48,781 nucleotides of DNA from Actinomycetota bacterium. Its GTDB lineage: Bacteria; Actinomycetota; Acidimicrobiia; Acidimicrobiales; JAJPHE01. Of the stretch, positions 23,245 to 41,461 are shown in pieces; within the stretch, counting starts at the first letter, position 1; each line of letters begins with the position of its first letter. The notes beneath the pieces are model-generated. The model had not been told where the DNA came from. It searched no databases and was given only the letters and a program-made list of their open reading frames with translations. The position numbers and the translations under genes were made by a program. The stretch is taken from positions 1 to 48,781 of the forward strand of contig JAJPHE010000068.1 in NCBI GenBank assembly GCA_021325435.1, written 5' to 3'.

Positions 23245-25134
23245 CTACCGAGGTTGAGGTCCCTCCGCCCGGGCGGCGAGAGAGACCAGAGACGGCGACA
23301 GGGCCAGCCCCAGCTCGTCCATGGCCGACCGGGCCCGCCTAACCATCAGCACCGCCTTTGACAACCAGCCCCGCTCCACGAGGAGCCGGGCGGCGAGGTC
23401 GTAATGAGCCTCGTTGTAGCGGTCCAACTCGATGCTCTGTTCGAGGAGCCGAACGGCCTCACGGACGTCGTCAGCGTCAACGGCGGCGGCGACGAGAATC
23501 TGGAGCATGTCGATGTGGCGGCGAAGCAGCCGCTCACGGATGACAGTCGTCCACCCGGCGTAACGGTCGGCCGGCAGGAACTCTCCGCGGTAAAGCTCGA
23601 TGGCGCGCTGAGCGAAGCTCGCGGCCGGCCGCCCGGCGGCGAACTCCGCCGCGGCCTGGTTCACCACCGTTTCCAGCTCGAGGACATCGACGACGACGTC
23701 GGGGGAGATCTGGAGCATCTCGCCGTCGCGCAGAACCACCTCACCGCAGGCGGCCCGGGCCCGACTGAGCACGTTGCGCAGGCGCCGACGCGCCTCACCG
23801 GGCTCGCCGTTGGGCCACAGCTCTTCTCCCACTTGGTCGAGCGAGACCTTCTCGAGGGCACAGACCATCTTGACCAGAAGGCCGGCGGACCCTCTGGGGG
23901 TGCAGTCGGACTCGCCCCGGAGGACGGCGAAGTCACCCAGCAGGCGGACTTCCGTCGTCGAGCCGGGCGCCGGTGATGGCCCGGGGACCCCCTGCCCACG
24001 AGCATGAGACGGGACGGCGGCCTGTCCGTTGCTGGCGACGGCGATCTTCACCTGGCGGTGCTGGCTCGGGGTGAGCCGGTACTGAAGAGCCGGCCCGATC
24101 AGGGGATGGGCGAGCTGGGCCCCTCCTATGCCGTTGCGAACGAGGCCCCGGTGGTTGGCCTCGTCCAGGGCTTCATCGCCAACGCCCAGGGTGCCGAGCA
24201 CCGAGCTCAGCGCGTCCGGATCGCGTTCGGTCATGGCGACGGCCAGAGTGGCCAAGCCGGTGGAATCATCGATTTGGGCAAGATCGAAGGCCGTGGTCAC
24301 TCGTTCGCCGACCGGCAGGGGGTCAGGAATGGGAGCCACGCCGGCGAGAACGGCGGGGGTGAGGCGGCTGACGACCTCGACGATTCCGAGCGGGTTGGCC
24401 CCCGTCAGGTTGATCAGCTGGTTCGCCACCGCCGGTGCCACCCTCGAGCCGGCGGTTGACTGGAGGAGGGCGTACACCGCCGAACTCGGCAGCGGACCGA
24501 GCGTTATCTGCTCAAGACCTTCCAGCAGACCCCGTCGGCCGTCTTCGCTGGCGGTCACGACCATGGCCACCGGCCGACCATGGAGTCGCCGGGCAGCCAG
24601 GGCGAGCACTTCCGCCGAGACGTAGTCCAAGTGGTGGAAGTCGTCCACCGCCACCAGGCACGGCTGACCGTCGGCCGACCAGCATTCGACGAGGGACTCG
24701 GCGCAACGCAACCGTGCCACCTCGTCGCCCGAGTCCGAGCTGGCTAGCTCGGGGCCGCAGTCCCATCCGCCGGGCGGCCCGGCCATGTCGGCCCGCAGTC
24801 TGCTCAGGCCGGCGCCGGGCACACCGGCCTCGGACCGGATGCCATCGAGCCGCAGCAGATAGGAGCAGACCCCAGAGGCCACCAAGGCGTCGAGCAGGGT
24901 GGTTCGGCCAGATCCCGGAGCACCGACGACGGTGATCGCCGCCCCGTCGCCGGCCGCGGCCCGGCGGACGAAATGTTGCAGCCGGGCTAGCTCCTCCCGT
25001 CGGCAAGCAAGGGTCGGCGCGCCAAGCTCAGGTTCTGTCCCCACTGGCACTCCCACCTTGGTCGCCGGCTCTCTCGCCGGCCGACGCCTTCCCTCTCCCA
25101 CGTCACCTCTCGATGCCGGGGACCGCGCCTCCAT
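23245..25134 (-). CDS. AAA-ATPase/SARP-type regulator (ATPase first, winged helix and BTAD last)
   Basis: A 629-residue predicted regulator. The N-terminal half is a STAND/AAA-type ATPase: Walker A GAPGSGRTT (71-79), Walker B LVAVDD (160-165), and sensor-like VVTASEDGRRG. The C-terminal half reads EVRLLGDFAVLRG (from about 395), an OmpR-like winged helix (LWPNGEPGEARRRLRNVLSR), then a BTAD domain (about 487-620: FAQRAIELYRGEFLPADRYA, LLEQSIELDRYNEAHYDLAA). SARP proteins of AfsR type carry these parts in the opposite order. ATG 25134 has GAGG upstream. It sits at the downstream edge of the CWB2 cluster and may control it, which is inference. Confidence 0.86.
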   Translation of the reverse strand: MEARSPASRGDVGEGRRRPAREPATKVGVPVGTEPELGAPTLACRREELARLQHFVRRAAAGDGAAITVVGAPGSGRTTLLDALVASGVCSYLLRLDGIRSEAGVPGAGLSRLRADMAGPPGGWDCGPELASSDSGDEVARLRCAESLVECWSADGQPCLVAVDDFHHLDYVSAEVLALAARRLHGRPVAMVVTASEDGRRGLLEGLEQITLGPLPSSAVYALLQSTAGSRVAPAVANQLINLTGANPLGIVEVVSRLTPAVLAGVAPIPDPLPVGERVTTAFDLAQIDDSTGLATLAVAMTERDPDALSSVLGTLGVGDEALDEANHRGLVRNGIGGAQLAHPLIGPALQYRLTPSQHRQVKIAVASNGQAAVPSHARGQGVPGPSPAPGSTTEVRLLGDFAVLRGESDCTPRGSAGLLVKMVCALEKVSLDQVGEELWPNGEPGEARRRLRNVLSRARAACGEVVLRDGEMLQISPDVVVDVLELETVVNQAAAEFAAGRPAASFAQRAIELYRGEFLPADRYAGWTTVIRERLLRRHIDMLQILVAAAVDADDVREAVRLLEQSIELDRYNEAHYDLAARLLVERGWLSKAVLMVRRARSAMDELGLALSPSLVSLAARAEGPQPR

Positions 25135-25242: not shown

Positions 25243-28200
25243 CTAGGCGGCGGCACCCGCGGCGGCGGCCACCGTCGGGCTCACCGCCGCCGGCCCTCCA
25301 TAGACGTCGACGGCGGTGATGCTGGACTGGTTGGCGGCCAGGTAGGAGGCGACCGCCGACGGCAGCGACGACGGGTCGGTCAACAGCATCGGCCCTCCAG
25401 CCGCTCCGATCTGCGCACCGCCCGACAGGGCGTCAGGGAAGTTGAGGCCCGAGGCCAGGCCTACCTGCGTGGGGGCGGAGAAGAAGGCGGCGGCCGTCTT
25501 CACCGCCGTCTGGTACCTGTCCGCTCCCACGATGGCGATGGCCCCGGGGTCGGCGGTGGCCGCCGGGCCGCCGAGGGCGTAGACGGTGGCGCCGGGGTGG
25601 GCGGCCAGGTAGGAGGCGGTGGTCGGGGCCATGGTGGACCCGTCGGTGAGAAGGACGGCTCCGTGGACCCGGGAGGCGGCGGCCCCGGCGGACAGCGCGT
25701 CGGGGAAGTCGATCCCGCTGGCCAGCAGCACGGTGGTGGGGTCGCCGAGAGCGGCGGCGATGGCGGCGGCGGTGCCGTAGCGGTCGGCGCCGGCCAGCCG
25801 GACCGCTTGGAAGCCGGCCGAGCTGAGCGCTGACTGCACGGCCGGGCTGAGGGCGCTCGTGCCTCCCAGCAGGTAGACGGTCCCCCCGGCCGGGAGGACC
25901 CGCTCGATCTCGGTCTGTGTCTCGGCGTCGAGGGAAGAAGAGGAACTGAGTAGGACGGGGGCGTGGTGGGCCACCGCTAGCGGGGTGCCGGCCAAGGCGT
26001 CGGCGTACTGGTCGGAGCGGCTGAGCACCACCGCTCCGGCGCTGCCGGCGGTGGGAAATGACGCCTGCGAGACCAGCACAGCCGTATCGACGCGGGTGGA
26101 CCCGGCGTACACGGTCGGGGTGATCCCCGAGCCGGCGGGGGTGACGGTGACGGTGTTGGACGGGGGTCCTGTCCCGGAGCTGTTGGCTGCCGCCACCGCG
26201 CAGCTGTATGCCGTGCCGTTGGTGAGCCCGGTGACGGTGGTGGTCGTCGGGGGCGGGGTGCCCGTCACCACTTTGGACGCCGCCGGCGAGCAGGAGACGG
26301 TGTAGGAAGTGACCGGCGAGGAACCGGTCGGCGCCGCCCAGGTGAAGGTGGCGGATCCGTTCCCGGGCGTGGCGGTCAGCCCGCTGGGAGCGCCAGGTGC
26401 GGACCCGGTTCCACCCGCGCCGCCCCCGCCGCCTCCTCCACCCCCGCCGCCCCCGCCGCCTCCACCCCCGCTACCGCCCGTGGAGGCGGCGGAGTTGGTG
26501 AGCGAGAAGGTCGCCTGGTTGGCGACACCCGACACCCGTCCCGACACGGCGTAGGTGCCGGTGGTGGCGTTGGCAGTGAAGGCCGGGGCGGTGGCGACCC
26601 CGGAAGCCGAGGTCACCCCGGCGGCCGTGTTGGTATTGGTGCCGGCGAACGTGCCGCTGGCGCCGGAGGAAGGGGCGGTGAAGGTGACGGTCGCGCCCTG
26701 GATCGGGTTGCCGAAGGAGTCGGTCACCGTGGCTTGCAGGTTGGTGGCGAAGGCGGAACCGATCGTCGCCGACTGGGGCGTGCCCCCGCTGGCGGTCACC
26801 ACCGAGGCGGTGGTGGTGTTGGTCAGCGTGTAGCTGGCGGGGGTGGTGACTCCAGCCACCCGCCCGGTCACGGTGTAGGTGCCCGGGGTTGTGTCAGCCG
26901 TCAGGGGCGGGGCGGTTGCCACCCCGGAGGTGTTGGTGACGGCGGTGGCGGCGTTGGTGTTGGTGGTGCTGAACGTTCCGCCGGCGCCCGAGGACGGAGC
27001 GGTGAAGGTGACCGTGGTCCCGTCGACCGGGTTACCGAAGGCGTCGGTCACCGTCGCTTCCAGGTTGGTGGCGAAGGCGGAGGTCAGCGGGCTCGACTGT
27101 CCACTACCAGCCGTGGCTGCCACCGTCGCCGGGGCGCCGGCCACGATCGTGTAGGGCGGTGACTGGGCGGGGAAGGTGTCCGCCGACGTCGTGACGGTGA
27201 GCGGGTAGGCGCCGACCGCCGTCGGGTTCGCCACCGAGTTCGCCGTCACCGTCACCGGGTCCGAGTTGGCGATGGTCGACGTCGACAGGGTGATCGTCAC
27301 CTGATTGTTGGTGGCGCTGCCCCCGGTCTTGGCCAGCTGGACGGCGGAGACGCCGTCAGTCGGGGCGGCGGAACCGTCGGTCACCGCGTAGTCGCCCCCC
27401 GTGCTGGGGAAGTCGGTGCCGGCCGGGCCGGTAAGGGTGATGGTGCCGGTCGCCGGGACGATTCCCGTGGCGCTGGTGGTGAAGTCGACCGTATAGGTGG
27501 CGCTCGCCCCGGCCGAGTCCGGCACCGGGCTGGCCGATACCGCCGCCACCGAGTTGGGAGCGCTGTAGGTGAAGACGTCGTTCGGGCCGGTGGCGCTGGT
27601 GCCGTTGACCGTGGTGACGGTGATGTCGACCGGTCCGGCGAAGGTCGACGCCGGGCTGGTGGCGGTGATCGACGTCGGAGAGCTCACCGTCACCGATGCA
27701 GCGGGCACACCGCCGAAGCTGACCGCCGAAGTGGGAGTGAACTCGGACCCGGTGATGATGACGCTGGTGCCTCCGGCGGCCGGCCCCGTGGCCGGGCTGA
27801 CCGAGGTCACCACGGGCGGAGCGAAGGTGGCCCGGGCCGCGCCCGTCGCCCAGGAGCAGCCGGTCGTGGTGAACCCGGCGCTGTCAGGGCTGGCGCCAGT
27901 GACGGCGTACTCCCCCGACACCCAGACATCGGAGGGATCGGCCGGATCGGTGGCGGCAAAGGAGTAGTCACCCCAGCGGCTGCCGGTAGAGCTGGCCGAG
28001 AAGCCGCAGCTGGTGTCGGTGTAGGTGTCGGTGCCCGCCTCCACCGTGGCCTGCGGACGGAGCGTCCCCGCCGGGTCGCCCACTCTCTGGCCGGCGACCT
28101 CGAAGCTGGGGTAGGCGCCCGAGGTCGAAGCGGAGGTGCCGTAGCCGACGAAGAGGTCGCCGGCCGCGTCCATGCCCACGGCCGGGTAGTAGAGGTCGGC

Positions 28201-29457
28201 GCCCGAGACTCCCAGGGTGAAGTCCTGCAGGACGGTGGGCGTCGAGCCTGAGGTAGAGAGTTGGACCAGGTCCAGGCAGGGCCGGTTGGTCGTGTCTCCC
28301 GACGGCTTGCACCCGGCGTTGCCGCCCACCCAAAGGACCCCGGACTGCCAGACCGCGTTCAAGAAACGGTCGTCGCCCGTGTCCAGGGATGCCGGCTTGC
28401 CCGGCTGATCGGCAGTGGGCGAGGCCGTGGTGGCATGGATGGCGGGGTCGGCCTCGGCCTTGGCCACATTGGCCGCCGACGGTGTTCCGGTCACCGAAAC
28501 CACCCCAATGGTCGGAACCGACTGGTTCTCGACCAGGTTGGTCGGGTCGGCATTGTCGTACACGAGGTATTGGGTTGTGGTGGAGGTGAGCGACTGCACC
28601 GGCACCAGCCCGAACCAGGAGCTGGTCGGCCCGAAGTGGGCTGACGCCGGCGCCGTGCCGGCGACCAGGTCGGATTTCTGCAGGACCCAGACCTCCTCAC
28701 CGGCGACGGTCTCGCCCGGGAGGGCGTAGTCGTCCCAGGCCAGGGTGACCTTGTCGTCGGAGAGCCCCAAGCGCGGCTGATCGAACAGCTCCGACGTGCT
28801 CGACGCCACGCTGAACACGTCCCAGGTGCCGGTGGGGTCGGAAGATGTCGACACCGCCACCTTCACGGCGCTGGCGGTGACCACCCCTCGACCGCTGATC
28901 TGGAACGAGGTGATGGAGGCGAACCACCGCCCAGAGGCGGCGTCATACAAGACCCTGGGGTCGGAGGCGGAGAATCCGGTACCCACGGCGAAGAAGGCGG
29001 TCAGGTCGAACTTCGTCAGCAGCGTGCCGGACTTGGTCCAGACCGATCCGCTCGAGTTGAGCATCTCCACGACGTCGGAGGTGCCGACGGCGGTGCCGTT
29101 GTCGGGCGGCTCGAGGAACTGGCCACTGCCGAACCATCCCAGCTGGGTGTCGAGCCCGTCGAGGGGAAGGTTGGTCAGTGACCCCACCGGGCTCGCCGGC
29201 GTCTGGGGTAACGACATGGGCTGAGCCGACGCCGCCGTGACCGGGCTGGTCGACTTGGTCGAGTAACGGTGCAGGCTCGGTGGGGCCACCGCAAGGGGAG
29301 CGGACGAGGCTGGCAGAGCCAAGGGATCGACTCGCACCGGGGCGGGAAGGGTGGCGTACTGGGCGCCGCCGCCGACGGCTGACGCCGGGGCGGCCATCGG
29401 CAGGGCGGAGGCTGCGGCGGTGACCGCCAGCACCGCCACCAGCCTGGACAACCTCAT
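25243..29457 (-). CDS. Giant secreted protein: propeller-like head, TIG, two invasin-like Ig domains, poly-Gly, FN3, CWB2 anchor
   Basis: A 1404-residue wall-bound protein. Signal peptide about 1-30 (RLSRLVAVLAVTAAASAL). Residues about 60-540 form a propeller-like head (RVLYDAASGRWFASITSFQI, LGLSDDKVTLAWDDY). A TIG domain follows (about 545-635, VTSVSPATGPAAGGTSVIIT), then a beta-rich segment, and two Big_1/invasin-like Ig domains (about 784-980, each with TVTDxFGNPxxGxTVTFTAPSSGA). A pure Gly linker (about 992-1012) leads to an FN3 domain (about 1017-1114) and three CWB2 units (about 1115-1404, LAGADRYGTA, IVGADRYQTA). ATG 29457 has GGGAGA upstream. CWB2 binds anionic wall polymers non-covalently in clostridia; the same is inferred here. 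Confidence 0.88.
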   Translation of the reverse strand: MRLSRLVAVLAVTAAASALPMAAPASAVGGGAQYATLPAPVRVDPLALPASSAPLAVAPPSLHRYSTKSTSPVTAASAQPMSLPQTPASPVGSLTNLPLDGLDTQLGWFGSGQFLEPPDNGTAVGTSDVVEMLNSSGSVWTKSGTLLTKFDLTAFFAVGTGFSASDPRVLYDAASGRWFASITSFQISGRGVVTASAVKVAVSTSSDPTGTWDVFSVASSTSELFDQPRLGLSDDKVTLAWDDYALPGETVAGEEVWVLQKSDLVAGTAPASAHFGPTSSWFGLVPVQSLTSTTTQYLVYDNADPTNLVENQSVPTIGVVSVTGTPSAANVAKAEADPAIHATTASPTADQPGKPASLDTGDDRFLNAVWQSGVLWVGGNAGCKPSGDTTNRPCLDLVQLSTSGSTPTVLQDFTLGVSGADLYYPAVGMDAAGDLFVGYGTSASTSGAYPSFEVAGQRVGDPAGTLRPQATVEAGTDTYTDTSCGFSASSTGSRWGDYSFAATDPADPSDVWVSGEYAVTGASPDSAGFTTTGCSWATGAARATFAPPVVTSVSPATGPAAGGTSVIITGSEFTPTSAVSFGGVPAASVTVSSPTSITATSPASTFAGPVDITVTTVNGTSATGPNDVFTYSAPNSVAAVSASPVPDSAGASATYTVDFTTSATGIVPATGTITLTGPAGTDFPSTGGDYAVTDGSAAPTDGVSAVQLAKTGGSATNNQVTITLSTSTIANSDPVTVTANSVANPTAVGAYPLTVTTSADTFPAQSPPYTIVAGAPATVAATAGSGQSSPLTSAFATNLEATVTDAFGNPVDGTTVTFTAPSSGAGGTFSTTNTNAATAVTNTSGVATAPPLTADTTPGTYTVTGRVAGVTTPASYTLTNTTTASVVTASGGTPQSATIGSAFATNLQATVTDSFGNPIQGATVTFTAPSSGASGTFAGTNTNTAAGVTSASGVATAPAFTANATTGTYAVSGRVSGVANQATFSLTNSAASTGGSGGGGGGGGGGGGGGGGGAGGTGSAPGAPSGLTATPGNGSATFTWAAPTGSSPVTSYTVSCSPAASKVVTGTPPPTTTTVTGLTNGTAYSCAVAAANSSGTGPPSNTVTVTPAGSGITPTVYAGSTRVDTAVLVSQASFPTAGSAGAVVLSRSDQYADALAGTPLAVAHHAPVLLSSSSSLDAETQTEIERVLPAGGTVYLLGGTSALSPAVQSALSSAGFQAVRLAGADRYGTAAAIAAALGDPTTVLLASGIDFPDALSAGAAASRVHGAVLLTDGSTMAPTTASYLAAHPGATVYALGGPAATADPGAIAIVGADRYQTAVKTAAAFFSAPTQVGLASGLNFPDALSGGAQIGAAGGPMLLTDPSSLPSAVASYLAANQSSITAVDVYGGPAAVSPTVAAAAGAAA
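26419..26471. repeat. GGC/GGN codon run encoding the poly-glycine linker
   Basis: On the plus strand a run of CCN triplets (ccgccgcccccgccgcctcc-type) encodes an uninterrupted Gly stretch on the minus strand, joining the Ig domains to the FN3/CWB2 anchor. It is prone to slippage in units of three. Confidence 0.75.
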
Positions 29458-29586
29458 CAATTCTCCCAATCGGTGTGAAGACTGACTATGGGCATCTATC
29501 GGCAACTCGGCCCGATCATCGAGGCCCAACTGTTGCCAGCCGCAACATAGGGCCGTGGTCCGTCCGATGGGCGGCGGCCGAGCGCG

Positions 29587-29643: not shown

Positions 29644-32600
29644 CTAGGCGGCAGCCCCTGCGGCCGAAACCACGGCCGGGCTGATGGCGGCGGAACCGCC
29701 ATAAACGTTGAGCGCCTGGATGGTGCTCTTGTTGGCCGTCAGGTAGTTCGACACCACCGTCGGGAGGGTGTTCGGATCGGTGAGCAGCATCGGCCCACCG
29801 AGGGCCCCCATCTGAGCCCCGCCGGACAGAGCGTCCGGGAAGTTCAGGCCGGAGGCGAGACCGACCACCGTCGGGTTGGTGAAGAACGTCTGGGCGACCA
29901 TGACCGCCGTTGCATACCGGTCGGCACCGACGATCGGCGTGGCCGACGGGTCAGCCGCTGCGGCTGGCCCGCCCAGGGCGAACAGGGTGTCGGACGGATG
30001 GCCCGCCAGGTAGGAGGCGGTGGTGGAGTTCATGGAGCTCCCGTTGGTGAGCAGGATCGCCCCACCGACCTTGGCCGCCGCCGCCCCGCCCGCCAGGGCG
30101 TCGGGGAAGTTGGTGCCGCTGGCCAGCAGGATCGTGCCCGGGTTGCCCAGGGCCCCGGCGATCGCCGTGGCTGTCCCGTACCGGTCGGCCCCGGCCAGGC
30201 GCACGGTGTGGAAGCCGAGCGAGGTCAGGGACGACTCGACGTTCGAGCTGAGGGCGCTGGTGCCGCCGAGGAGGACCACCGTCCCGCCAGCAGGTAGCAC
30301 CCGCTGGATCTCGGCCTGGGTCTCGGGGTCGAGGCTAGCCGTCGGCGTCAGCAGGATCGGGGCGTGGTTGGCCACGGCCAACGGCGTCCCTGCCAGCGCG
30401 TCGGGGTAGTCATCGGACCGGGAGAGGACCACGGCGCCGGCGCTGCCCGGATTCGGGAACGACGCCTTCGACACCAGGACGGCAGTGTCGATTCGGTTGG
30501 TGCCGGCGTACACCGTCGGGGTCACCCCGGCCTGCGGCGTGACAGTTACCGCCGGGCTGGAAGAAGGTCCAGATCCGTTGGCGTTTGCCGCGCTAACTGT
30601 GCAGGTGTAGGTGTTCCCGTTGGTGAGGCCATTGATGGTCGTGCTGGTCGGCGGCGGGTTGCCGGTGACCGTGCTGGTCGCAGTGGGCGAGCAGCTCACC
30701 GTGTAGGAGGTGACCGGCGACCCGCTGGTGTTGGTCGGGGCCGTCCAGGTGAAGCTGGCGGACCCGTTACCCGGTGTTGCCTGCAGATTGGTCGGGGCGC
30801 CGAGGGCACCTGAGGTTCCGCCACCGCCGCCGCCACCACCACCGCCGCCGGTCCCGCCGGTCCCGCCGGTCCCGCCGGTCCCGCCGGTCCCACCGGTCCC
30901 ACCAGTGCCGCCGGTCGTCCCACCACCGCCTGGGGCGCTGATGAACGTGGGCGACGTCGGGTAGCTGCAGGTCGGCGGGCCGTTGAGTGCGGGGGCCGTG
31001 GTGACCGATCCACCACCGGTGTCACTCACCTTGTTCTGGATGTCGGTCTGGTCGGAGGCGGGGTATCCCCACCAGTTGTTGGTTGCGTCGGTCACGCCCG
31101 TGTTGTTGGTAACCAGGTCGTAGGGGTTGTTGGTCCACGAGGGGCTCGGAGCCGTCTCGCCCGGATTGGTGAAGCTGTTCTGGTTCGTCGTCGGGTCCTC
31201 GTCGCTCGGATTGCCGCTATACCGGATCCCGTTGACGTTGTTCCAGATGGCGTTGCACTGGACAGTGCCCTGGGCCGGGGCGTTCCTGACGAAAAGGCCG
31301 TTGCCGGCCGCGGAGACCGTCACCCCGGAAGTAGACACGCTGTTGTTGGCGATGTTCGGCGTCACACCGGAGGTGTCGATGCCGTTCGAGCCCGAACCTG
31401 ACACCCAGTTGCCGGTGATGACCGGTCCGTAGGTGCCGGACGGGGTGACCGCATTGCCGGTCGCGTTGTAGCTGATCCCCTCGTAGCCACTGTCGGTCAC
31501 CGTGTTGTTGGTGACCTTCGTGTCGGGGACTGCTGTACCCGTGGCCGTGGTATTGGCCTGCAGGTTCACGGCAACCCCGTTACCGGAGCCGCCCTGCATG
31601 CCATTTACGTCGTTGCCAGTGATGGTTGCGGTGTTGTCGGCAACCTGGTTGGTGTTGGTGTTGTAGCTGTTGGCATACGCCTGGGTCGAGTCGTAGATGC
31701 CGTCGATGTTCGAGTTACTCCAGGCGTTGTCGACCAGGTTGTTGCTGAACGTGGCGTCGTTGGTGGCATTACCGCTGTCCGAGCTGACGTCGTGGTAGAT
31801 GCCTCCTGAGTAACCCGTGACATGGGCGCCGGTCACCGAGAACGTGTCCATTGCCGGCGCTTTGTCTCCGTATGTCTGGGCGTAGCCCTCGACGCCGTAA
31901 CCGTCGGAGCCCTCCCAGTTGCCGATCGGGCTGTTGGTGATGCTGGCAGCCAGCGTCGCCCCAGCGGGATTGGCAGAGCCGCTGGTCTGCTGCCCGGAGT
32001 GGGAGTCGAAATAGGCACCAGCGTCATACCCGTAGCCCGTGGAGTTGGTCACCGCCATGTCATTGGTGGCGCCGCCTCCGCAGTAACCGCAGTAGGCGTT
32101 GGCGTCGAGTGCATCCCCGTCAATGGAGGTCAGGCTGGTGCCACTCACCGTGCCGCCGGCATGAACCGAGCCCGGCCACGAGGCCGACGAATTGTCGTAG
32201 GCGTCGGTGTATAGGGCGTCGTCATAACCCCTGACCGTGTCACTGGTCAGCGAAGGCGTGACGGCGATCACGTCGGCGTTGCCGGCCGGGGCAGCGGCTC
32301 CGTAACCGTCACCGTACAGGTAGATGCCATAGCCCCATGCGGCGCTGATATCCGTGTTCTGGATCGTCGGAGCCGAGGTGAGGGCCGCACCCGAGTTGGT
32401 GAAGTTCTCGGTGTAGATACCGTCGCCGACGGTGCTCGTCAGCTGGTCATTGGAGAACGTGGTATCGAACGTGGCCGGCTGCGAGCCGCTGCCGTACAGC
32501 TCGAGGTACACGCCGTCGCTGTAGCTGTTGATGGCCGACCCGGAGATGGTGCCGCCGACGTGGGTGCTTCCTGTGCCGCCGGGTTCGGCGTAGATAATCA

Positions 32601-35600
32601 AGCCCTCGTCGCCACTGGAGTCCGGCGCGTTGAGAGTCGACGTGGAGACGTTGGGCAGGATCCGGGTCTGGCCCGTTCCCTCGCTGTAGGCCTCGGTGTC
32701 GACGGCGGTGCTGTAGGTGCTGGTGATCTGGGCCTTGTTGGCGGTGAACGATGCGTCCGCATCACTGTCGCCGTTGACGGCGTCGGCGTAGTTGTACAGC
32801 CCGTCACTGGTGGCCGTCACGGTCGACGAGTCGATGACCGGATTGGCTAGGGCCGTTCCAGACCCTCCGGAGCCGGCGCTGTACGAGTAGTTCTCAATGC
32901 CGTATTCGTCAGCGCTGGCGTCTCCGCCCACCAGGCTCGACCCGTTCGTCACCGACGGGTCCGCCGTTGACGCCCCGTAGTACGACTCGGCCTCGTTGTA
33001 GAGAGCGTCGTAATAGGCATTGATGCTCACCGCCGACAGTGACGGGTTGGCGATGGCCGTGCCCGGGGAGGTGGAGTGGTCCGAACCGAAGGCGTAGTTC
33101 TCGATGCCGTAGCCGCTCGAGTCGCCGACGGCCGACAGGTTCGAGCTGGTGATCTGCGGGCTGGCGGTGCCGTTCCCGTAATAGCCTTCACCTTCGTTGT
33201 AGATGGCGTCGTAATAGCCGGCCGTCAACGTGGAATTGCTGATGACCGGGTTGGCAGTGCCGTCGCCGGGGGCACCGGAGTCCGACCCGTACGCTTCGTT
33301 GTCGAGCGCGTAGTCGGTGGCCGAAGTCAGTGTCGATCCGCTAATGGTCGGGTTGGCATTGGCTGTCCCGTAGTACGCCTCAGCGAAGTTGTAGAACGCC
33401 TCGTCTGAGCTGTCTCCAGCCTGGAGGGTCGAGTTGGTGATGCTGCCGTTGGCGTTGGCATCGCCAGGGGCGGCGCTCTCCGATCCGTACACCTCGTTGT
33501 CGAGCGCGTATTCATCGTAGGACTGGATGTTCGAACCGGACACCGACAGATTGCCCGTGCCATTGCCGTAATAGCTCTCGACGTCGTTGTAGACGCCGTA
33601 CTCGTAGGCGTTCACGGTCGAGTTCGTGAGGCTGGGTGAGCTGACCGCATCACCCGACGCACCGTATTCCGACGCGTAGGTGCAGATGTATAGGCCGTCG
33701 CCTCCGGCGCCATTCAGCTTTGAGCCGGTCACACTGATATTGCTGGTGGCTGCTCCGACGTAGGATTCGTTGCAGTCAACATCGATGGCATTGCTGTCAT
33801 ACGAGTCGAGGGTTGACCCGCTGACCGGCATGTTCAGCGTGGCGGCGCCGGTGCCAGTCTCGATGTCGGTCGCATAGTTCTCGATGTAGATGGCGTCGTC
33901 GCCGCCCTGGCCAGCGTTGACGGTCGAGTTGGTCACCGGCACGTTGGCGGTGGCGCTCCCCGAGTACGAGTAGTCGCCCAGATCGAGGCCGTAGTAGTAG
34001 GCGTTGACCGTCATCCCGACGATCGGGGCGCTTGTCTGCACGTCCCCGCTGGTGCCCTTGGTCTCGTTGTAAACATACCAACCGTCGTCGAGGGCGGACC
34101 GGAGGCTGTCGCCGCCGCTGCCGGTGTTGATGCTGAGCAGGCTGTTACCCGGGCCGGCGTCGACGTAGTTCTTGGTGTCTAGCGCGTCGTATTCGGAGGA
34201 GATGGCGTCGTTGGTCAGGCTCAGGTCGTCGCAGGCGGCGAACGATCCGCTGGCGCAGCTGGTCGCTGTGCTGGCCCCGTTGGGGGTGGCCGAGTCCCCG
34301 GTCTCCGTGTACAGGTAAGCGCCGTAGCTGCTCCCGTCGCCGGACAGGGTGTCGTTGGAAATGCTACCGGTCAGGGTGGCGGTGCCCGGCACCGACGTGC
34401 TGCTCGAGTAGGCGGATAGGTAGAGCTCGTTCCCCGAGCGGGTCTCGGTGAGCGTGTCACCAGTGATGTTGGCAGTGACGCCGGCATTGTTCAGGCTGGG
34501 CTGGGAGCTGCCGGTCTCGCTGTAGAGGTAGAGCGGGTAGTAGCCGGTGATGGAGGAGTTCGTCACCGTGGCGCTGAACGGGTTGCCCATGATGGGGTTA
34601 CCAGCGAAGTTGGTGTCGTTATAGACCGACTGCGCCCCGACGCCGGTCCCGCTCGACGTGCCGTCGTACGTCAGGTTCGAGATCTGGACGTTGGCGCCGC
34701 TGGGCACATCCCAGTAGAGGATGCCCTCTGATTGGCTGTGGTAGTTGCCGGCCATGTGCTCGACCACGGAGTTCGAGATCGGCTCCGCGTAGGTGTCGGC
34801 GGCCAGGGTGTCGCCGTAGCTGAGGGCGAGCCAGCTGATGGAGCCCGAAGGAGTGTGGCCGACCCCGTCGTAGAGGATGTCGCCCCAGGCGCCATCGGTA
34901 GGAGCGGTGCTGGAGCCGGGAGCGGCGTCGGCGGAGGTGATCGTCACCGGCGACGACTGGGTGCCGGCCACGGTGAAGCCACCCTGGACAATGATGTCGG
35001 TGTTCGACGACGGGTCTGACCCGACCGTGGCCGTGTCTGACGACGTGTCGACGTAGACGACCGTGCCCGGGGCCAGGGTCAGGGAGGCCCCGTCGGGGAT
35101 GGTCAGGTCGCCCTGGAGCTCGTACCCGTTGGGGCACGAGGCCGGCGACCAAACAACATTTCCGGACAGGGTGCCGGGGGCAACCTGGCAGGATCCGGTG
35201 ATGGTCGAGATTGTCTGAGGCGTCAGCGGGACGCTGGCCACCAACGGCGTCTGGCGCAGTGGCTTGGTCACCTGGGCCTTGCTAGGGGCCGCCTTGCTGA
35301 CGTGAGGCGCGGCAGAGATCTTGGCCTTGGAGGGAGGCCCGGCGTTGAGCGTGGCGCTGGCAGAGCCGAGGGCCTGGCCAGCGGAGGCTTGCGGCAGCGC
35401 TGCCTTGCCCGGCTGGGAGGCGCCCACCGACGCCACCGTCACCGAGTAGGTGTAGCTGACGTTCGGCTGCGCGGTCTTGTCCAGGAAGGAGTGGGCGGGG
35501 GTGGGCGTGGGGGTCAGGTTGACGGTGGTCGTCCCGTCGCTGCGGCTGACGGTGAACGTTCTGGCGTTGTTGGGCGCGTTACGCCACTGGACGCGGATGC

Positions 35601-35790
35601 TCTTGCCACTGGATGCCGCCAAGACCTGCGGGGCCAGCGGCGTGGGTGCACTTGTGGATGTGGCGGTCGCCGCGCCGGCGATGCTGGGCCGTACTGCCCC
35701 CAACCCGCTCAGCAACAACGCCGACATGCCGGCTGCAGCAGCTTGGTAGAGCCGCCGCCGAGTAGCCGTAATCCTTCGGCTCTCCATCAT
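29644..35790 (-). CDS. Giant wall-bound parallel beta-helix protein with Tyr/Asp/Glu-rich repeats and CWB2 anchor
   Basis: A 2048-residue exported protein, the largest gene in the window. Basic signal peptide (RRITATRRRLYQAAAAG, hydrophobic run, about 1-42), an FN3-like domain (about 48-135), then about 1400 residues of beta-helix coils. Between about 550 and 1200 these become long regular repeats with alternating blocks such as YALDNEVYGSESAAPGD and AIYNEGEGYYGNGTASPQI, each closed by an I-x-x-S-x-L strand. The repeats are rich in Tyr, Asp, Glu, Asn and Ser and nearly free of Lys and Arg. A Gly/Gly-Thr linker (about 1620-1658), an FN3 domain (about 1660-1755) and three CWB2 units (about 1757-2048) end the protein. 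ATG 35790 has AAGGGGAG upstream and overlaps the previous gene by ATGA. Adhesin, surface fibre or metal-binding roles are all possible. Confidence 0.87.
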   Translation of the reverse strand: MMESRRITATRRRLYQAAAAGMSALLLSGLGAVRPSIAGAATATSTSAPTPLAPQVLAASSGKSIRVQWRNAPNNARTFTVSRSDGTTTVNLTPTPTPAHSFLDKTAQPNVSYTYSVTVASVGASQPGKAALPQASAGQALGSASATLNAGPPSKAKISAAPHVSKAAPSKAQVTKPLRQTPLVASVPLTPQTISTITGSCQVAPGTLSGNVVWSPASCPNGYELQGDLTIPDGASLTLAPGTVVYVDTSSDTATVGSDPSSNTDIIVQGGFTVAGTQSSPVTITSADAAPGSSTAPTDGAWGDILYDGVGHTPSGSISWLALSYGDTLAADTYAEPISNSVVEHMAGNYHSQSEGILYWDVPSGANVQISNLTYDGTSSGTGVGAQSVYNDTNFAGNPIMGNPFSATVTNSSITGYYPLYLYSETGSSQPSLNNAGVTANITGDTLTETRSGNELYLSAYSSSTSVPGTATLTGSISNDTLSGDGSSYGAYLYTETGDSATPNGASTATSCASGSFAACDDLSLTNDAISSEYDALDTKNYVDAGPGNSLLSINTGSGGDSLRSALDDGWYVYNETKGTSGDVQTSAPIVGMTVNAYYYGLDLGDYSYSGSATANVPVTNSTVNAGQGGDDAIYIENYATDIETGTGAATLNMPVSGSTLDSYDSNAIDVDCNESYVGAATSNISVTGSKLNGAGGDGLYICTYASEYGASGDAVSSPSLTNSTVNAYEYGVYNDVESYYGNGTGNLSVSGSNIQSYDEYALDNEVYGSESAAPGDANANGSITNSTLQAGDSSDEAFYNFAEAYYGTANANPTISGSTLTSATDYALDNEAYGSDSGAPGDGTANPVISNSTLTAGYYDAIYNEGEGYYGNGTASPQITSSNLSAVGDSSGYGIENYAFGSDHSTSPGTAIANPSLSAVSINAYYDALYNEAESYYGASTADPSVTNGSSLVGGDASADEYGIENYSYSAGSGGSGTALANPVIDSSTVTATSDGLYNYADAVNGDSDADASFTANKAQITSTYSTAVDTEAYSEGTGQTRILPNVSTSTLNAPDSSGDEGLIIYAEPGGTGSTHVGGTISGSAINSYSDGVYLELYGSGSQPATFDTTFSNDQLTSTVGDGIYTENFTNSGAALTSAPTIQNTDISAAWGYGIYLYGDGYGAAAPAGNADVIAVTPSLTSDTVRGYDDALYTDAYDNSSASWPGSVHAGGTVSGTSLTSIDGDALDANAYCGYCGGGATNDMAVTNSTGYGYDAGAYFDSHSGQQTSGSANPAGATLAASITNSPIGNWEGSDGYGVEGYAQTYGDKAPAMDTFSVTGAHVTGYSGGIYHDVSSDSGNATNDATFSNNLVDNAWSNSNIDGIYDSTQAYANSYNTNTNQVADNTATITGNDVNGMQGGSGNGVAVNLQANTTATGTAVPDTKVTNNTVTDSGYEGISYNATGNAVTPSGTYGPVITGNWVSGSGSNGIDTSGVTPNIANNSVSTSGVTVSAAGNGLFVRNAPAQGTVQCNAIWNNVNGIRYSGNPSDEDPTTNQNSFTNPGETAPSPSWTNNPYDLVTNNTGVTDATNNWWGYPASDQTDIQNKVSDTGGGSVTTAPALNGPPTCSYPTSPTFISAPGGGGTTGGTGGTGGTGGTGGTGGTGGTGGGGGGGGGGGTSGALGAPTNLQATPGNGSASFTWTAPTNTSGSPVTSYTVSCSPTATSTVTGNPPPTSTTINGLTNGNTYTCTVSAANANGSGPSSSPAVTVTPQAGVTPTVYAGTNRIDTAVLVSKASFPNPGSAGAVVLSRSDDYPDALAGTPLAVANHAPILLTPTASLDPETQAEIQRVLPAGGTVVLLGGTSALSSNVESSLTSLGFHTVRLAGADRYGTATAIAGALGNPGTILLASGTNFPDALAGGAAAAKVGGAILLTNGSSMNSTTASYLAGHPSDTLFALGGPAAAADPSATPIVGADRYATAVMVAQTFFTNPTVVGLASGLNFPDALSGGAQMGALGGPMLLTDPNTLPTVVSNYLTANKSTIQALNVYGGSAAISPAVVSAAGAAA
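30847..30909. repeat. 9-bp tandem repeat (five exact copies plus two variants)
   Basis: gccggtccc is repeated five times exactly at 30847-30891, then as accggtccc and accagtgcc. On the minus strand it encodes the Gly-Gly-Thr linker. The unit length keeps the frame, so copy-number change would alter linker length only. Confidence 0.9.
32300..34100. repeat. Degenerate long repeats encoding Tyr/Asp/Glu-rich beta-helix coils
   Basis: Within the 2048-aa gene, blocks of about 100-115 bp recur, visible as repeated tcgttgtagatggcgtcgta-like and gcgtcgccgg-like segments and in the protein as YALDNE.YGS and YNE.E.YYG motifs. Boundaries are approximate. Base composition is noticeably less GC-rich than in neighbouring genes. 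Confidence 0.65.
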
Positions 35791-36706: not shown

Positions 36707-39700
36707 TTAGGTGTTCTGGTCACCCTCGGGGTTGCCGACGGTGAAGCCAGTCGCCGTACCAGTGACGGCGTCCTGGTCAACGGTGCCCAGGACAGCGCTG
36801 GTGATCGCCGACTGGGTAGCAGCCGCAGCCGTGCCCAGATCCTGATAGCCCGAGCAGACCACCGTGGTGTTGGCGTTGCTGGTGGTGTTGGTGGCGCTCG
36901 TGGAACCGTTGCTGCAGCTGGTGGCCGTCAGCTCATCGCCGTTGGCCTCGTACAGGTGGAACTTGCCCACGTTGGCAACGGTGAAGAACACAGGATGGCT
37001 GAACGTGTACGTCGCCACCTCCTGAGTTCCGAACCCAGTCGCCTGCTGGCTAAGAGCCACGCTGACCAGCTGCGGGGCGTTGACCGTGCCCGGCGTGATC
37101 GACGTCGATGCCGATCCGGACGGGGTGGTCCCGAGCTCGTCAGGCTGGTTCGCCTGCGAGGCCGGCGTAGACGTGGCGGTGCTGGTCACAGCGCCGCCCT
37201 GAACGAAGGCGCCGGTGGCGTCGGCCAGCGTGCCAGCCGGGTAGTAGACGAGGACAGCGTTGTTGGTTCCGCTGCCATTGCTACCGAGGGTGCTGGTGCA
37301 CGTAGCCGGTCCAGCACAGGTGGCGGCGCCGCCGAACGTCGAGGTGGCGTTGGTGCCGTGGAACACGCCGAACTTACCTACCGTGCCGGCAGCAGCCAGC
37401 GACTGGTCGAACACGTACAGCACGGCGTCATTGGCCGTCGTGTTCGAGGAGGTGTTGGCGGGCTCCAGGGTGACGCTGACCAGGTCCGGGGCCGATGTAT
37501 TCGGCCCGGCGGTGGTGCTTGCGGCCAGCGTTCCGTTGCCAGCTTGGTGGGCAGCCTGCAGCGGGTTGCAGTAGGTGCTGCTGGCTGTGACCAGGCCGCC
37601 GTTGCTCGGGCACGCCTGAGCGCCCGTCAGTGCCGCCGACGACACAGTGTCGGGGCCGACGAAGGCTCGGCCGACCTGCGATGACGTCATAGCGGTGCTG
37701 CTGGGCGTGGCCGCCCCGGTCACTGCCGTGCCGGTGGCGGTCGGATTGGTGCACAGAACGGTGACACTGCTCTGGCCGTTGCCGCCACCAGCGACAGTCC
37801 CGTCGGGGGCGACCGTGTTACCAGCGGCCGGCCCGGAGCAAGACTCTGCCGAGTCATCCGGGAAGACCAGGTAGAAGCCAGCAGTTGCCCCGGATTCCGG
37901 CGTACCCGTCGGAGGCGGAGCCACACCGGCACCGGTGGTTGCCGCTGCGTTGGTCACGTAGGCCGGCTGGTCGAACGTGAACGTCACCGGAGTCTGACCA
38001 GCTGCCGTATTAGCGGAGCTGGGCGTTCCGAAGGTGACCGTGCGCAGGTCAGGAGCCGGCGTGGTGTTAGCCGTGAAGCTGCCGCTGCCGGTGGTCTGCG
38101 CCGTGCCGATGGCCGCCGATCCGTCTGGGTTGGTGGTGCCCGAGGCGGTCGTAACCGCGTTCGGACGCACCGTCGCCAGCGTGTAGTTCGGAGCCACGGT
38201 GTAGGCCGAGTTGGTGGTAGTGACGTTGTTGTTCGTCGTGGTGCTGCTGGTGTTGTTGACCAAGTTGTAGAAGGCGGTCACCTGGTTGCTGCCCGGAGTG
38301 AACGTCACCGAGCAGGCATCCAACTTGGGTGCGCTGGTCGCAGTCAGAGCCCCGCCGCCGGCGGTGTTGCCCGGACCTGACACCGTATAGGTGGTGGTAG
38401 CCGCGCAGCTGCTGGTCTCTCCACCATCCCAGTTGTAGGGATAGATGAGGAAGTCGCTAGCCGTCGCCGAGGTAACCGGCTGGGAGAACGTGTAGGTCAC
38501 CGGCGTCCCCGGGGTGGCCCCGGTGTTGTTGTTGGCCGGGACCGTGGTCCCCATCTGAGCCGATACGAGTTCGGGAAGGCTGGTCAGGGCCTGATGGCCC
38601 CCCTGGCCCGTGACGCTGAAGGTCGTCGAGCTGACGACCGGCGTCGTGCTACCAGGCATGGTGGCGCTGAAGGTCAGTGTGCAACTGCCGGCAGCCTGGT
38701 TGGACGGGATGGTGAAGCTGAAGGTGCTCGTGCTCCCGCCCGTCGTGTTGCCCGAACCGGGAGTGGTGCTGGCGTTGCTCAGACCGCAGCCTGACACGGT
38801 GACCGATGTCGGCGTACCGGTGAAGGTGGCCGTCACTGTGCTCCCGCCCGGCCCGGAGGTCGGGCTGATGCTGGAGACCGTACCCGCGCTACCCGGAGCC
38901 GTACCGCCACCGGCGGTGATGACCGAGTTCACGCAAGCCGCCGGCATCGGGCTCTGGCCACCGAACAGCGGCGAGTTGCCGTGCAGAGTCGCCTTCTCGC
39001 TGCTGGCGAAATCCGCAGCGGCGGCGCAGTCGGTCGGGTTGTTGCTCACCAGCAGCGGGATGAACGATCCGACGTTGGAGCCGGTGGGCGGAGAAGCCAC
39101 CGCGTTGTTCGCAGCCCACGCGGGAGCGTTACCGACCAGCGAAGCCGAAGCCAGGGCGTCGGCACCGTCGTTCTGGACGGTGGTGGTGTTGCCCACATAT
39201 GTGGCGCCAGCAGCCAGGCCCATGAACTGGTTGGAGCCGCCATAGTTGGCGACCTCATCCTTGGCCAGCAGCTCGGCCGTGGCGGCACGGTTGGCACCGG
39301 TGGTGGCCGAGGTGTCGGCGTTCTTGCCCGAGTACTGGCAGGCCGGAATCGCGGCAGTGCCGCCGACCACGATGTACTTGGTGATCCCGAGCTTGGTGAT
39401 CACGTCCTGGGTCGCAGCCGGGATGGTGCAGCCCGTCGAGGTGGTCACCAGGATTGGGAACTTCAGGGCATACGACAGGGGACCGGCACCGAGGGCGTCA
39501 ACCAGGTGGTTGTCGTCGCCCGAGGCCAGGATCCCGGTCGTGGCTGCCCCGACGCCCGGGGTCTCGTCGATCCGGCGGGCGGTGTCGTAACGGTCAGTCC
39601 CGGCGTAGGTGGTGTTGTCCACCGTGTAACCGGCCTGCTGGAGGGCGGTCACCTGAGCGGAGGACACCGCGTTGGTACCGCCGATCACGATGATGTTCTT

Positions 39701-40057
39701 CACCTTGTTGGTGGAAAGACACGTCATCGTGTTCGACGGGACAGTGTTGGTGTTGTCGGTGAGCAGGATCGGGGCGCCCTTGGCCTGCTCAAGGATCGGG
39801 GACGCCAACGGGTCGGACTGGTGGCCGGGAAGACCGTCAGCCAGAAGGACCGTGGCGATAGAGCCCGTCCCTTGGGGGTTGTAACGAGCGGTGGCGATCT
39901 GACATGCCGTCCCGTAGCGGTCAGCACCCGACTGCCGATTGAACCCGAAGGTCGAATCAGCGTGGGCTGCTACCGCCAGGACCGACAAGCCCAGAGTCGC
40001 CGAAAGGCCGGCGATTACGCCGACCCCCGCTCTCTTGAACCATGCGGTTCCTGACAA
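36707..40057 (-). CDS. S-layer-like protein with N-terminal CWB2 wall-binding domains
   Basis: A 1116-residue exported protein. Signal peptide about 1-33 (KRAGVGVIAGLSATLGLSVL, cleavage near AHA-DS). Three CWB2 units occupy about 40-382, marked by GADRYGT (44-50), GTDRYDT (153-159) and the degenerate TGANRAATA (about 253-261). The C-terminal ~720 residues are Thr/Ser/Asn/Ala-rich with at least four copies of a beta-domain opening (P-x-L-x-S-V, then TYTFSQPV, TFTFDQPA, LYVFDQSL, TYTFSHPV). This layout resembles clostridial CWB2 S-layer proteins. The start is TTG at 40057, supported by AGGAGG 5 nt upstream; no in-frame ATG serves. It is preceded by a 459-nt leader and followed by a strong terminator, consistent with an abundant, separately transcribed protein. 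Confidence 0.88.
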   Translation of the reverse strand: MSGTAWFKRAGVGVIAGLSATLGLSVLAVAAHADSTFGFNRQSGADRYGTACQIATARYNPQGTGSIATVLLADGLPGHQSDPLASPILEQAKGAPILLTDNTNTVPSNTMTCLSTNKVKNIIVIGGTNAVSSAQVTALQQAGYTVDNTTYAGTDRYDTARRIDETPGVGAATTGILASGDDNHLVDALGAGPLSYALKFPILVTTSTGCTIPAATQDVITKLGITKYIVVGGTAAIPACQYSGKNADTSATTGANRAATAELLAKDEVANYGGSNQFMGLAAGATYVGNTTTVQNDGADALASASLVGNAPAWAANNAVASPPTGSNVGSFIPLLVSNNPTDCAAAADFASSEKATLHGNSPLFGGQSPMPAACVNSVITAGGGTAPGSAGTVSSISPTSGPGGSTVTATFTGTPTSVTVSGCGLSNASTTPGSGNTTGGSTSTFSFTIPSNQAAGSCTLTFSATMPGSTTPVVSSTTFSVTGQGGHQALTSLPELVSAQMGTTVPANNNTGATPGTPVTYTFSQPVTSATASDFLIYPYNWDGGETSSCAATTTYTVSGPGNTAGGGALTATSAPKLDACSVTFTPGSNQVTAFYNLVNNTSSTTTNNNVTTTNSAYTVAPNYTLATVRPNAVTTASGTTNPDGSAAIGTAQTTGSGSFTANTTPAPDLRTVTFGTPSSANTAAGQTPVTFTFDQPAYVTNAAATTGAGVAPPPTGTPESGATAGFYLVFPDDSAESCSGPAAGNTVAPDGTVAGGGNGQSSVTVLCTNPTATGTAVTGAATPSSTAMTSSQVGRAFVGPDTVSSAALTGAQACPSNGGLVTASSTYCNPLQAAHQAGNGTLAASTTAGPNTSAPDLVSVTLEPANTSSNTTANDAVLYVFDQSLAAAGTVGKFGVFHGTNATSTFGGAATCAGPATCTSTLGSNGSGTNNAVLVYYPAGTLADATGAFVQGGAVTSTATSTPASQANQPDELGTTPSGSASTSITPGTVNAPQLVSVALSQQATGFGTQEVATYTFSHPVFFTVANVGKFHLYEANGDELTATSCSNGSTSATNTTSNANTTVVCSGYQDLGTAAAATQSAITSAVLGTVDQDAVTGTATGFTVGNPEGDQNT

Positions 40058-40516: not shown

Positions 40517-41461
40517 CTAGGAGCCCGAAGTCGAGGTCGTGGTGGAGGTCGAGGTGGTGGTGGAACCGTTGTCGCCACCGCCGTTGTTGGTGTGGATGAT
40601 CCCGGTCCGCTGACCCGGCGGGGTGCCACCCGTAGTGGTGGTGGTGACCGTCGTAGTGGTCGTCGGCGGGATCGACGTGGTCGTGCTCGTGGTCGACCCG
40701 GTGGTGGTCGTCGTCTTGGCGGTGGTGCTCGTCGTGCTGCTCGGCGCCGACGAGGTCGTGCTGCTCGAGGCCACCGGACCGGCCGCGCTCGTGGTGGAGA
40801 CCGGCTGGGCTAGGGCGTTCTGAGGAACCTGGGGCAGCTGCTCGGTGATGGTCAGCTGGAGCTGCTGGACCAGGGCCTCGAGCTGGGCGATCTTCTGCAG
40901 GGCCGCCTGGAGCAGGAAGTCCTTGAGGGGGTTGTCGGGCGAAAGCTGCTGGGCCGAGGCCTGGGCCTGCAAAGCATCCCTGGCGGCGTTGTTGGCCGAG
41001 GTCTGAGCGGCGCCCCGGTCGCCGGCCTGGGCGGCCCGGGTGGCCTGGGCGATCTGGTCGTTGACCATCTGCAGGGACTGGGCGACCTGGATGCCCTGCA
41101 GCGACGCCGGGGCCAGGCCCGGCTGCTGCCCACCGTTTCCATTGAGCCCCACGAACAGCACCAGGCCCACGACCACGGCGGCCGCGGCACCGGGCATCCC
41201 CTGCTGCCAGCGCCGGCGCCGGTGGTCGCGCTGGGCGGCCCGCTTGGCAGCCAGGCCCGCCCGCAGGGCGACCAGCGGCTCGTGGGGAACCGGCTCGAGG
41301 CGGGCGGAACGGGCCAGGGCCCGGGCCGCGGCCATCTCGGCCTCGAAGTTGTCCACGCCGGCGTCGATCTGCTGGAGCACGGCCTCGAGGGCGGCGTCGA
41401 GCTGCTCGCCCCGCTGCTGGAGCTTGCGGCGGCGGTCCGACAGGTGGCGGATGACGCTCAT
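40517..41461 (-). CDS. Membrane-anchored candidate anti-sigma factor with Ser/Thr-rich exterior
   Basis: A 314-residue single-pass protein. The N-terminal ~85 residues are charged and helical (HLSDRRRKLQQRGEQLDAAL, ARALARSARLEPVPHEPL). One transmembrane segment follows (about 91-106, GAAAAVVVGLVLFVGL), then an Ala/Gln-rich helical region (about 115-220) resembling DUF5667-type extracytoplasmic domains, and a very Ser/Thr-rich tail (about 227-314). The ATG at 41461 overlaps the sigma factor stop by 4 nt, the standard arrangement for a cognate anti-sigma factor. No zinc-finger HxxxCxxC motif is present, so it would be an atypical one. Alternative: a wall-stress sensor or heavily glycosylated surface protein. 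Confidence 0.7.
   Translation of the reverse strand: MSVIRHLSDRRRKLQQRGEQLDAALEAVLQQIDAGVDNFEAEMAAARALARSARLEPVPHEPLVALRAGLAAKRAAQRDHRRRRWQQGMPGAAAAVVVGLVLFVGLNGNGGQQPGLAPASLQGIQVAQSLQMVNDQIAQATRAAQAGDRGAAQTSANNAARDALQAQASAQQLSPDNPLKDFLLQAALQKIAQLEALVQQLQLTITEQLPQVPQNALAQPVSTTSAAGPVASSSTTSSAPSSTTSTTAKTTTTTGSTTSTTTSIPPTTTTTVTTTTTGGTPPGQRTGIIHTNNGGGDNGSTTTSTSTTTSTSGS

Follow-up and report, generated by a model that had tools for sequence, protein, structure and literature searches.

The Gram-positive β-solenoid adhesin SRRP of L. reuteri is reported to bind its ligands in a pH-dependent manner, with acidic polysaccharides bound at acid pH (PMC6973325), and in C. difficile an anionic polymer is described as the partner to which CWB2 repeats attach the wall proteins (PMC4973711). 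Ice nucleation proteins are β-solenoids in which an exposed aromatic ladder, together with acidic positions, has been proposed to serve assembly. We analysed a 48,781-nucleotide stretch of an Acidimicrobiales genome (contig JAJPHE010000068.1 of assembly GCA_021325435.1; hereafter the window) in which a minus-strand gene encodes a 2048-residue protein that, as judged from its sequence, is secreted and anchored to the wall by CWB2 repeats. Its middle part is predicted to form 28 β-helix coils with an outward face paved by Tyr, Asp and Glu, in which aromatic and acidic residues alternate from coil to coil. The fold is a known one; what is unusual is this outward surface. We give a probability of roughly 0.5 to the reading that the protein is a rod serving adhesion or assembly, anchored to the wall and bearing a polyanionic, aromatic strip along one side.

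AlphaFold2 prediction of residues 718-1045 together with two homologues gave a confident all-β model, with a mean predicted local distance difference test score (pLDDT) of 91.3 and a predicted TM-score (pTM) of 0.91. Comparison of this model with known structures using VIA-align gave Z scores of at least 8 for 381 of 418 chains. Surface proteins of bacteria are among the structural matches, along with epimerases, lyases, hydrolases and tailspikes. They include Vag8 (Z 25.3, root mean square deviation (rmsd) 2.5, 245 residues aligned), SRRP 5ny0 (Z 22.3, rmsd 2.6, 251 aligned), pertactin 2iou (Z 21.9, rmsd 2.8, 243 aligned), PfbA 4mr0 (Z 20.1, rmsd 3.8, 277 aligned) and alginate epimerases (Z 20.5-21.8). 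A second AlphaFold2 model of residues 195-1394 (mean pLDDT 75.4, pTM 0.74; one of the five models 47.8) shows successive coils from residue 404 to about 1350, the cap, the end and several loops being modelled with low confidence. Its best VIA-align match is again Vag8 (Z 27.3, 3.7 Å, 388 aligned), and a viral fold search with it returned six matches at E ≤ 0.001, all with query TM-scores of 0.21 or less, those named being an uncharacterised phage protein and collagen-like proteins. The predicted fold is a right-handed parallel β-helix, secure in the centre and likely elsewhere, the handedness being taken from the structural matches. The original prediction had called for a β-helix and a structural model, and the central model bears it out. 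Furthermore, the inward strand position 2 is Asn in nine successive coils (residues 733-998) and in 6 of 13 strands of an orthologue from the same family (genome G001). An inward Asn ladder is a typical feature of β-helices.

Sequence comparison finds no described family for the coils, which have no match in Pfam, NCBIfam or PDB sequences (phmmer against the PDB up to E 1). Pfam PF13229 Beta_helix is not among the matches of the whole protein up to E 1, a profile built from three homologues gave a single PDB match at chance level (E 1.5), and PHROGs matched only the CWB2 part and its flank. The earlier remark that the repeat was not recognised from a described family stands for the sequence, but the fold itself is known.

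The epimerases, lyases, hydrolases and tailspikes among the fold matches would suit a wall-fixed β-helix enzyme acting on polysaccharide (a lyase, hydrolase or epimerase), as would a GH76 gene within the window and the weak match of the G001 counterpart of the FN3-like N-terminus to RGI_lyase PF18370 (21.4 bits; cut-off 27.8). However, Lys and Arg together account for only 9 of the 947 coil residues, and a basic residue takes part in catalysis by lyases with this fold; Asp-based hydrolases would escape this objection. We regard an enzymatic role as highly improbable.

In order to describe the surface we took the long strand (S3) of the 28 coils from the second model, shifting its start by two residues in three coils with parity kept; strand positions 1, 3 and 5 are outward and 0, 2 and 4 inward. 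Aromatic or acidic residues occupy 74 of the 84 outward positions (41 aromatic, 33 acidic, 2 basic or His, 8 other) compared with 4 of 84 inward ones (3 aromatic, 1 acidic, 1 basic or His, 79 other). All 30 outward positions of the central ten coils are aromatic or acidic. Loop 1, which precedes the long strand, contains 24.3% Asp+Glu and 17.6% Tyr, against 7.2% and 4.2% in the other loop and strands sampled. Loop 1 and the outward S3 positions would together form a one-sided strip which, with 232 of the 947 coil residues, holds 64 of the 79 Tyr and 69 of the 108 acids. A motif scan that does not depend on the model, and that also catches strings outside S3, found 64 of 84 outward positions aromatic or acidic over residues 404-1350 but 3 of 21 in the last coils (residues 1351-1600) of the same protein. 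The same scan gave 6 of 24 in a canonical β-helix protein encoded nearby, 22 of 66 in the G001 orthologue and 21 of 39 in a homologue from another family of the order (genome G012); at loci L010, L011, L019, L020 and L022, included for control, no open reading frame passed its filter. The surface packed with Asp, Glu and Tyr that had been suggested earlier is supported by the model. The repeats had been placed at 32300-34100 (residues 564-1164); they are real there, and the pattern extends more widely, over residues 404-1350.

The same note had expected long acidic ladders. On the long strand these are ruled out, and ladders of alternating aromatic and acidic residues take their place in the model. 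Among the 81 pairs of vertical neighbours in the 28 coils, 50 are aromatic-acid (31.5 in shuffles), 4 acid-acid (12.3 expected) and 10 aromatic-aromatic (19.0 expected); the aromatic-acid and acid-acid counts were as extreme in 0 of 5000 shuffles. A lack of stacked acidic loops had been named as a refuting outcome, and it applies as far as the strand is concerned. In the central block alternation occurs in 24 of 27 steps (13.9 expected, P 5e-5), with columns 1 and 5 each alternating at every one of their 9 steps (within-column P 0.007) and the centre column at 6 of 9 (P 0.31). The central block consists of two-coil duplicates and its steps are not independent, so we tested the other 18 coils separately. 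These alternate in 23 of 48 steps (15.4 expected, P 0.005) and have 2 acid-acid neighbours where 4.6 are expected (P 0.08).

Tyrosine is the specific enrichment. Coil residues 404-1350 contain 8.3% Tyr, 11.4% Asp+Glu and 1.0% Lys+Arg (108 Asp or Glu), and the stretch 564-1164 contains 9.2%, 12.0% and 0.8%, with an isoelectric point of 4.05. Six further CWB2 proteins encoded in the genome have corresponding ranges of 1.7-3.2%, 4.8-8.6% and 2.0-5.0%; these are the 25243-29529 and 36707-40057 proteins, the former counted without its first 50 residues and the latter without its first 35, together with four frames running from stop to stop in L024-L026. The canonical β-helix neighbour has 3.3%, 9.6% and 3.0%, the G001 coils 1.9%, 11.3% and 3.3%, and the G012 coils 10.4%, 13.0% and 2.9%. 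The coils had been described as rich in Tyr and acid and poor in Lys and Arg: the Tyr content bears this out, but the Lys/Arg poverty is partly general and the acidity is shared with the Tyr-poor G001 orthologue. Base composition does not explain the Tyr richness, since the window has 70.5% G+C and Tyr in residues 404-1511 is mostly encoded by TAC (73 TAC, 12 TAT).

The coil length is seen in the periodicity of residues 404-1511, where lag 31 (z = 4.5) passes and lag 66 (z = 3.9) is borderline to the threshold of 3.94, the 99th percentile of the shuffled maximum. Coils cut by hand are 23-50 residues long, with 30 of 33 falling within 29-41. In the central block, with coil limits likewise cut by hand, the mean pairwise score is 61.4 for coils at offset 2 compared with 21.8 for those at offset 1, which agrees with the earlier observation that alternating blocks recur. 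The unit is two coils of 64-68 residues in all (718-781, 782-847, 848-915 and 916-983), and the block arose through two-coil duplication. At aligned codons 55-65% of the nucleotides are the same between copies, and their identical residues use the same codon in 103 of 179 cases. This lies close to the 0.53 expected at saturation from the gene's own codon usage, and the copies are therefore old, with residue classes kept while synonymous sites are nearly randomised.

A search of 397 genomes of the order matched four: the genome itself, G001, G012 and G099, the last being spurious, as by eye its matching locus holds a short-chain dehydrogenase-like frame. The family comprises three genomes, of which G002 gave no match. 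Four of 395 genomes sampled from the class were matched, those other than the genome itself (G017, G022 and G090) through the N-terminal cap part of the profile only; the loci of G017 and G090, read by eye, look like those of other β-helix proteins. At loci L010 and L011 the match covers about 100 residues near the cap. Among 396 genomes sampled from the phylum the central coils were found in the genome itself only, with few candidates scored per genome, so that misses are possible. Viral contigs, plasmids and phages gave no central-coil match, and although 47 viral stretches fit a pattern none was confirmed. The G001 protein is a full-length orthologue, 61% identical over CWB2 and 30% over the N-terminal half. 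The G012 gene is truncated by the contig end, and in its coils, with strands placed by eye as in G001, 41 of 51 outward positions are aromatic or acidic (P 1.6e-4 against G001). The paving thus appears in two families without being fixed, and the alternation has so far been seen in the window protein only.

These comparisons bear on whether the strip has a function at all. Exposed positions might simply have drifted in a secretome poor in Lys and Arg after an internal duplication: the other CWB2 proteins of the genome are poor in these residues too, the Tyr-poor orthologue is equally acidic and largely lacks the paving, and the central block is a duplication. Against such drift, however, stand the filling of the outward face despite the high G+C content of the window, a Tyr content well above the range of the six other CWB2 proteins, the recurrence of the paving in another family, and the persistence of residue classes where synonymous sites look saturated. 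A lack of any specific surface function seems to us very unlikely.

From the computed fold class, anchor domains, strip and alternation we infer adhesion or assembly that depends on pH and cations. The protein would be held on the cell wall by its three CWB2 repeats, and the β-helix would form a rod of about 13 nm across the 28 Tyr/acid coils. Together with the preceding loop, the long strand's outward face would make up a single continuous Tyr/Asp/Glu strip, aromatic and acid alternating along the rod, which is probably a broad binding surface for polysaccharide, mineral surfaces or a second rod. Sticking could occur by aromatic stacking and Tyr-carboxylate hydrogen bonds. The alternation would let many carboxylates share one sheet without like-charge stacking, keeping stacked carboxylates around 9.6 Å apart with an aromatic residue in between. 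Over 13.4 nm the 28 coils carry a net charge of -99, or about 0.74 per Å for an assumed rise of 4.8 Å, a density close to that of DNA. With some 99 net negative charges and almost no Lys or Arg, dependence on pH and cations is likely, and binding is expected to be stronger at low pH or with multivalent cations.

Several results weigh against the adhesion or assembly rod. Confidence in the 28-coil model is moderate, and Foldseek alone found no match at E ≤ 0.001, the best being Pel9A 1ru4 (E 4e-3, TM-score 0.34 by query). The residue classes, the register and the alternation tests were set after the sequence had been seen. Within a strand, neighbouring outward positions of the central block alternate no more often than chance predicts (10 of 20, 10.3 expected), and hence the term checkerboard is strictly valid for the outer columns alone, the pattern being one of ladders. 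The central steps are, through the duplication, not independent of each other; taken alone, the N part of the remaining coils alternates in 11 of 24 steps (7.6 expected, P 0.07, not significant) and the C part in 12 of 24 (8.0 expected, P 0.036), which is weak. The strip is also no constant feature of the family: of the 39 outward positions in the G001 orthologue, only 16 hold an aromatic or acidic residue and 7 hold Lys, Arg or His (Fisher P 1.2e-7 in comparison with the window protein). The G012 coils lack the alternation (13 of 48, 14.2 expected).

The same charge density could instead serve to gather Ca, Mg, Fe or other cations or mineral on the surface of the cell, whether through condensation or through binding at particular sites. 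A calcium-bound β-helix, Cthe_2159, is among the structural matches (Z 19.4, 2.8 Å, 217 aligned), but the strand acids are spaced apart rather than stacked, and a motif scan found two EF/dockerin-like strings only and no RTX-like one. Cation or mineral binding as the role of the rod is, in our view, quite improbable.

The strip might also be the interface of two identical rods, in a self-assembly zipper. A parallel two-fold dimer would set column 1 aromatic against column 5 acid, and in all 10 central coils these two columns are in antiphase (5.0 expected from shuffles, P 0.004), while over the full set of 28 they complement each other in 17 (11.1 expected, P 0.009). An exposed tyrosine ladder has been proposed as the dimer interface of ice nucleation proteins, in parallel (PMC3196904) or antiparallel (PMC10727499) arrangement. 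However, the centre column (D,E,F,E,E,Y,E,Y,Y,E) would lie opposite its own copy, acid on acid in 6 of the 10 central coils, G012 has no alternation, and two such rods would be expected to repel each other at neutral pH. We consider a zipper of this kind unlikely. More novel, and also unlikely, is the reading that the alternating Tyr/carboxylate ladders, running for about 13 nm and extended two coils at a time, constitute a zipper, switched by pH or cations, that couples neighbouring rods laterally on the cell surface, or else a tyrosine array passing protons or electrons along the rod.

The architecture of the protein carrying the putative adhesion or assembly rod is summarised in the table below. 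Three tandem PF04122 repeats in a protein whose signal peptide was judged by eye agree with the earlier description as a wall protein. The N-terminal cap is conserved in three homologues. The G001 region orthologous to residues 1351-1580 has a sub-threshold match to Beta_helix PF13229 (E 0.0043, 17.1 bits; cut-off 25.9).

Table. Position of the wall protein gene and its parts within the window.
Feature	Residues	Position	Strand	Basis
Gene of wall-anchored β-helix protein	2048 residues	29644..35790	minus	Open reading frame and full-length G001 orthologue
Signal peptide	1 to ~40	35671..35790	minus	By eye from translation
Putative FN3-like N-terminal domain	~47-150	35341..35652	minus	Conserved in G001
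N-terminal cap and irregular helix start	195-403	34582..35208	minus	Predicted β, partly low confidence
28 Tyr/acid coils	404-1350	31741..34581	minus	AlphaFold2 model m82be852e8ab7; strand register and counts
Central ten coils	718-1045	32656..33639	minus	AlphaFold2 pLDDT 91.3; aromatic/acid alternation; inward Asn ladder
Ordinary last coils and C-terminal cap (NWWG at residue 1572)	1351-1580	31051..31740	minus	Motif count
Gly/Thr linker	1621-1660	30811..30930	minus	Translation
FN3 domain	1665-1749	30544..30798	minus	PF00041 E 2.8e-16
Three CWB2 wall-binding repeats		29671..30507	minus	PF04122 E 1.9e-47, 160.2 bits, 3 stretches

The gene is the middle one of three for large CWB2 wall proteins that adjoin on the minus strand (36707-40057, 29644-35790 and 25243-29529). 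The 36707-40057 protein has CWB2 at its N-terminus; the 25243-29529 protein has TIG, Big_1-like (below cut-off) and FN3 domains, and CWB2 at its C-terminus. In the genome as a whole (4.0 Mb in 160 contigs) seven reading frames carry CWB2 repeats, 20 in all, and three of these frames lie in the window. Another of its CWB2 proteins (L024, G000:C24; a frame of 1803 residues) has by eye a long TIG/IPT-like array, with a very long poly-Gly linker ahead of the wall-binding part. Upstream of the CWB2 cluster lies a sigma-70-family (ECF-like) gene (41458-42192, minus), followed, with an overlap of a few bases, by a gene (40517-41461, minus) whose product has a single hydrophobic stretch and a tail rich in Thr and Ser; the two are possibly a sigma/anti-sigma pair. 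An AAA_16/BTAD regulator is encoded downstream of the β-helix gene in the window (23245-25134, minus) and upstream of it in G001 (L007, 1316-3106, plus), the two being 31% identical. The canonical β-helix neighbour (10251-12629, plus; PF13229, 30.3 bits) carries a TIG domain and no Tyr/acid face, and is the sole PF13229 match found in the genome. A large open reading frame at 6709-9411 (minus) has a pro-kumamolisin activation domain (PF09286) and is perhaps a sedolisin-like protease precursor. Sedolisin-like proteases favour acid, which would fit an acid-exposed surface.

β-helices usually stack like on like, in Asn, aromatic or Thr ladders, and no alternating Tyr/acid β-helix face turned up in the open-access literature searched. 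Unlike residues alternating over a face of 28 coils suggest how a rod may carry a high charge density without stacked charges, and could provide a natural template for the design of sticky, switchable protein surfaces. Comparing the relatives offers a way to test what the strip does, given that the paving is present in the window protein and in G012 and largely lacking in G001, which has the same plan.

The ice nucleation family, defined by 16-residue coils and TxT, is not among the Pfam matches of the protein and these hallmarks are not found. Regular TxT is absent, only 4 of 28 coils having T at each of their two outward S2 positions, and an ice-binding face was rejected. The SlpA-type S-layer model NF033435 scored 58.5 bits against an equivalog cut-off of 650, within CWB2 only (residues 1760-1908). 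In comparison with the Cwp/SlpA-type CWB2 proteins of C. difficile, the window protein has the same three CWB2 repeats without the SlpA-type S-layer region. With right-handed parallel β-helices of the pectate-lyase-C-like kind (PF13229, PbH1) it shares the predicted fold, the inward aliphatic stack, the Asn ladder, the N-terminal cap and the NWWG C-terminal region; it differs in having no PF13229 match and in a long-strand outward face that is almost wholly aromatic or acidic. By analogy it seems most to resemble surface adhesins of the same fold, as in the binding region of the L. reuteri SRRP (5ny0) and PfbA of S. pneumoniae (4mr0), both Gram-positive β-helix adhesins. The similarity there is one of fold, with no PDB sequence match, and the anchors of SRRP and PfbA differ from CWB2 anchoring. 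Finally, ice nucleation proteins stack Tyr over Tyr in their short coils, whereas the coils of the window protein are of about 33 residues and set aromatic residues in alternation with acids.

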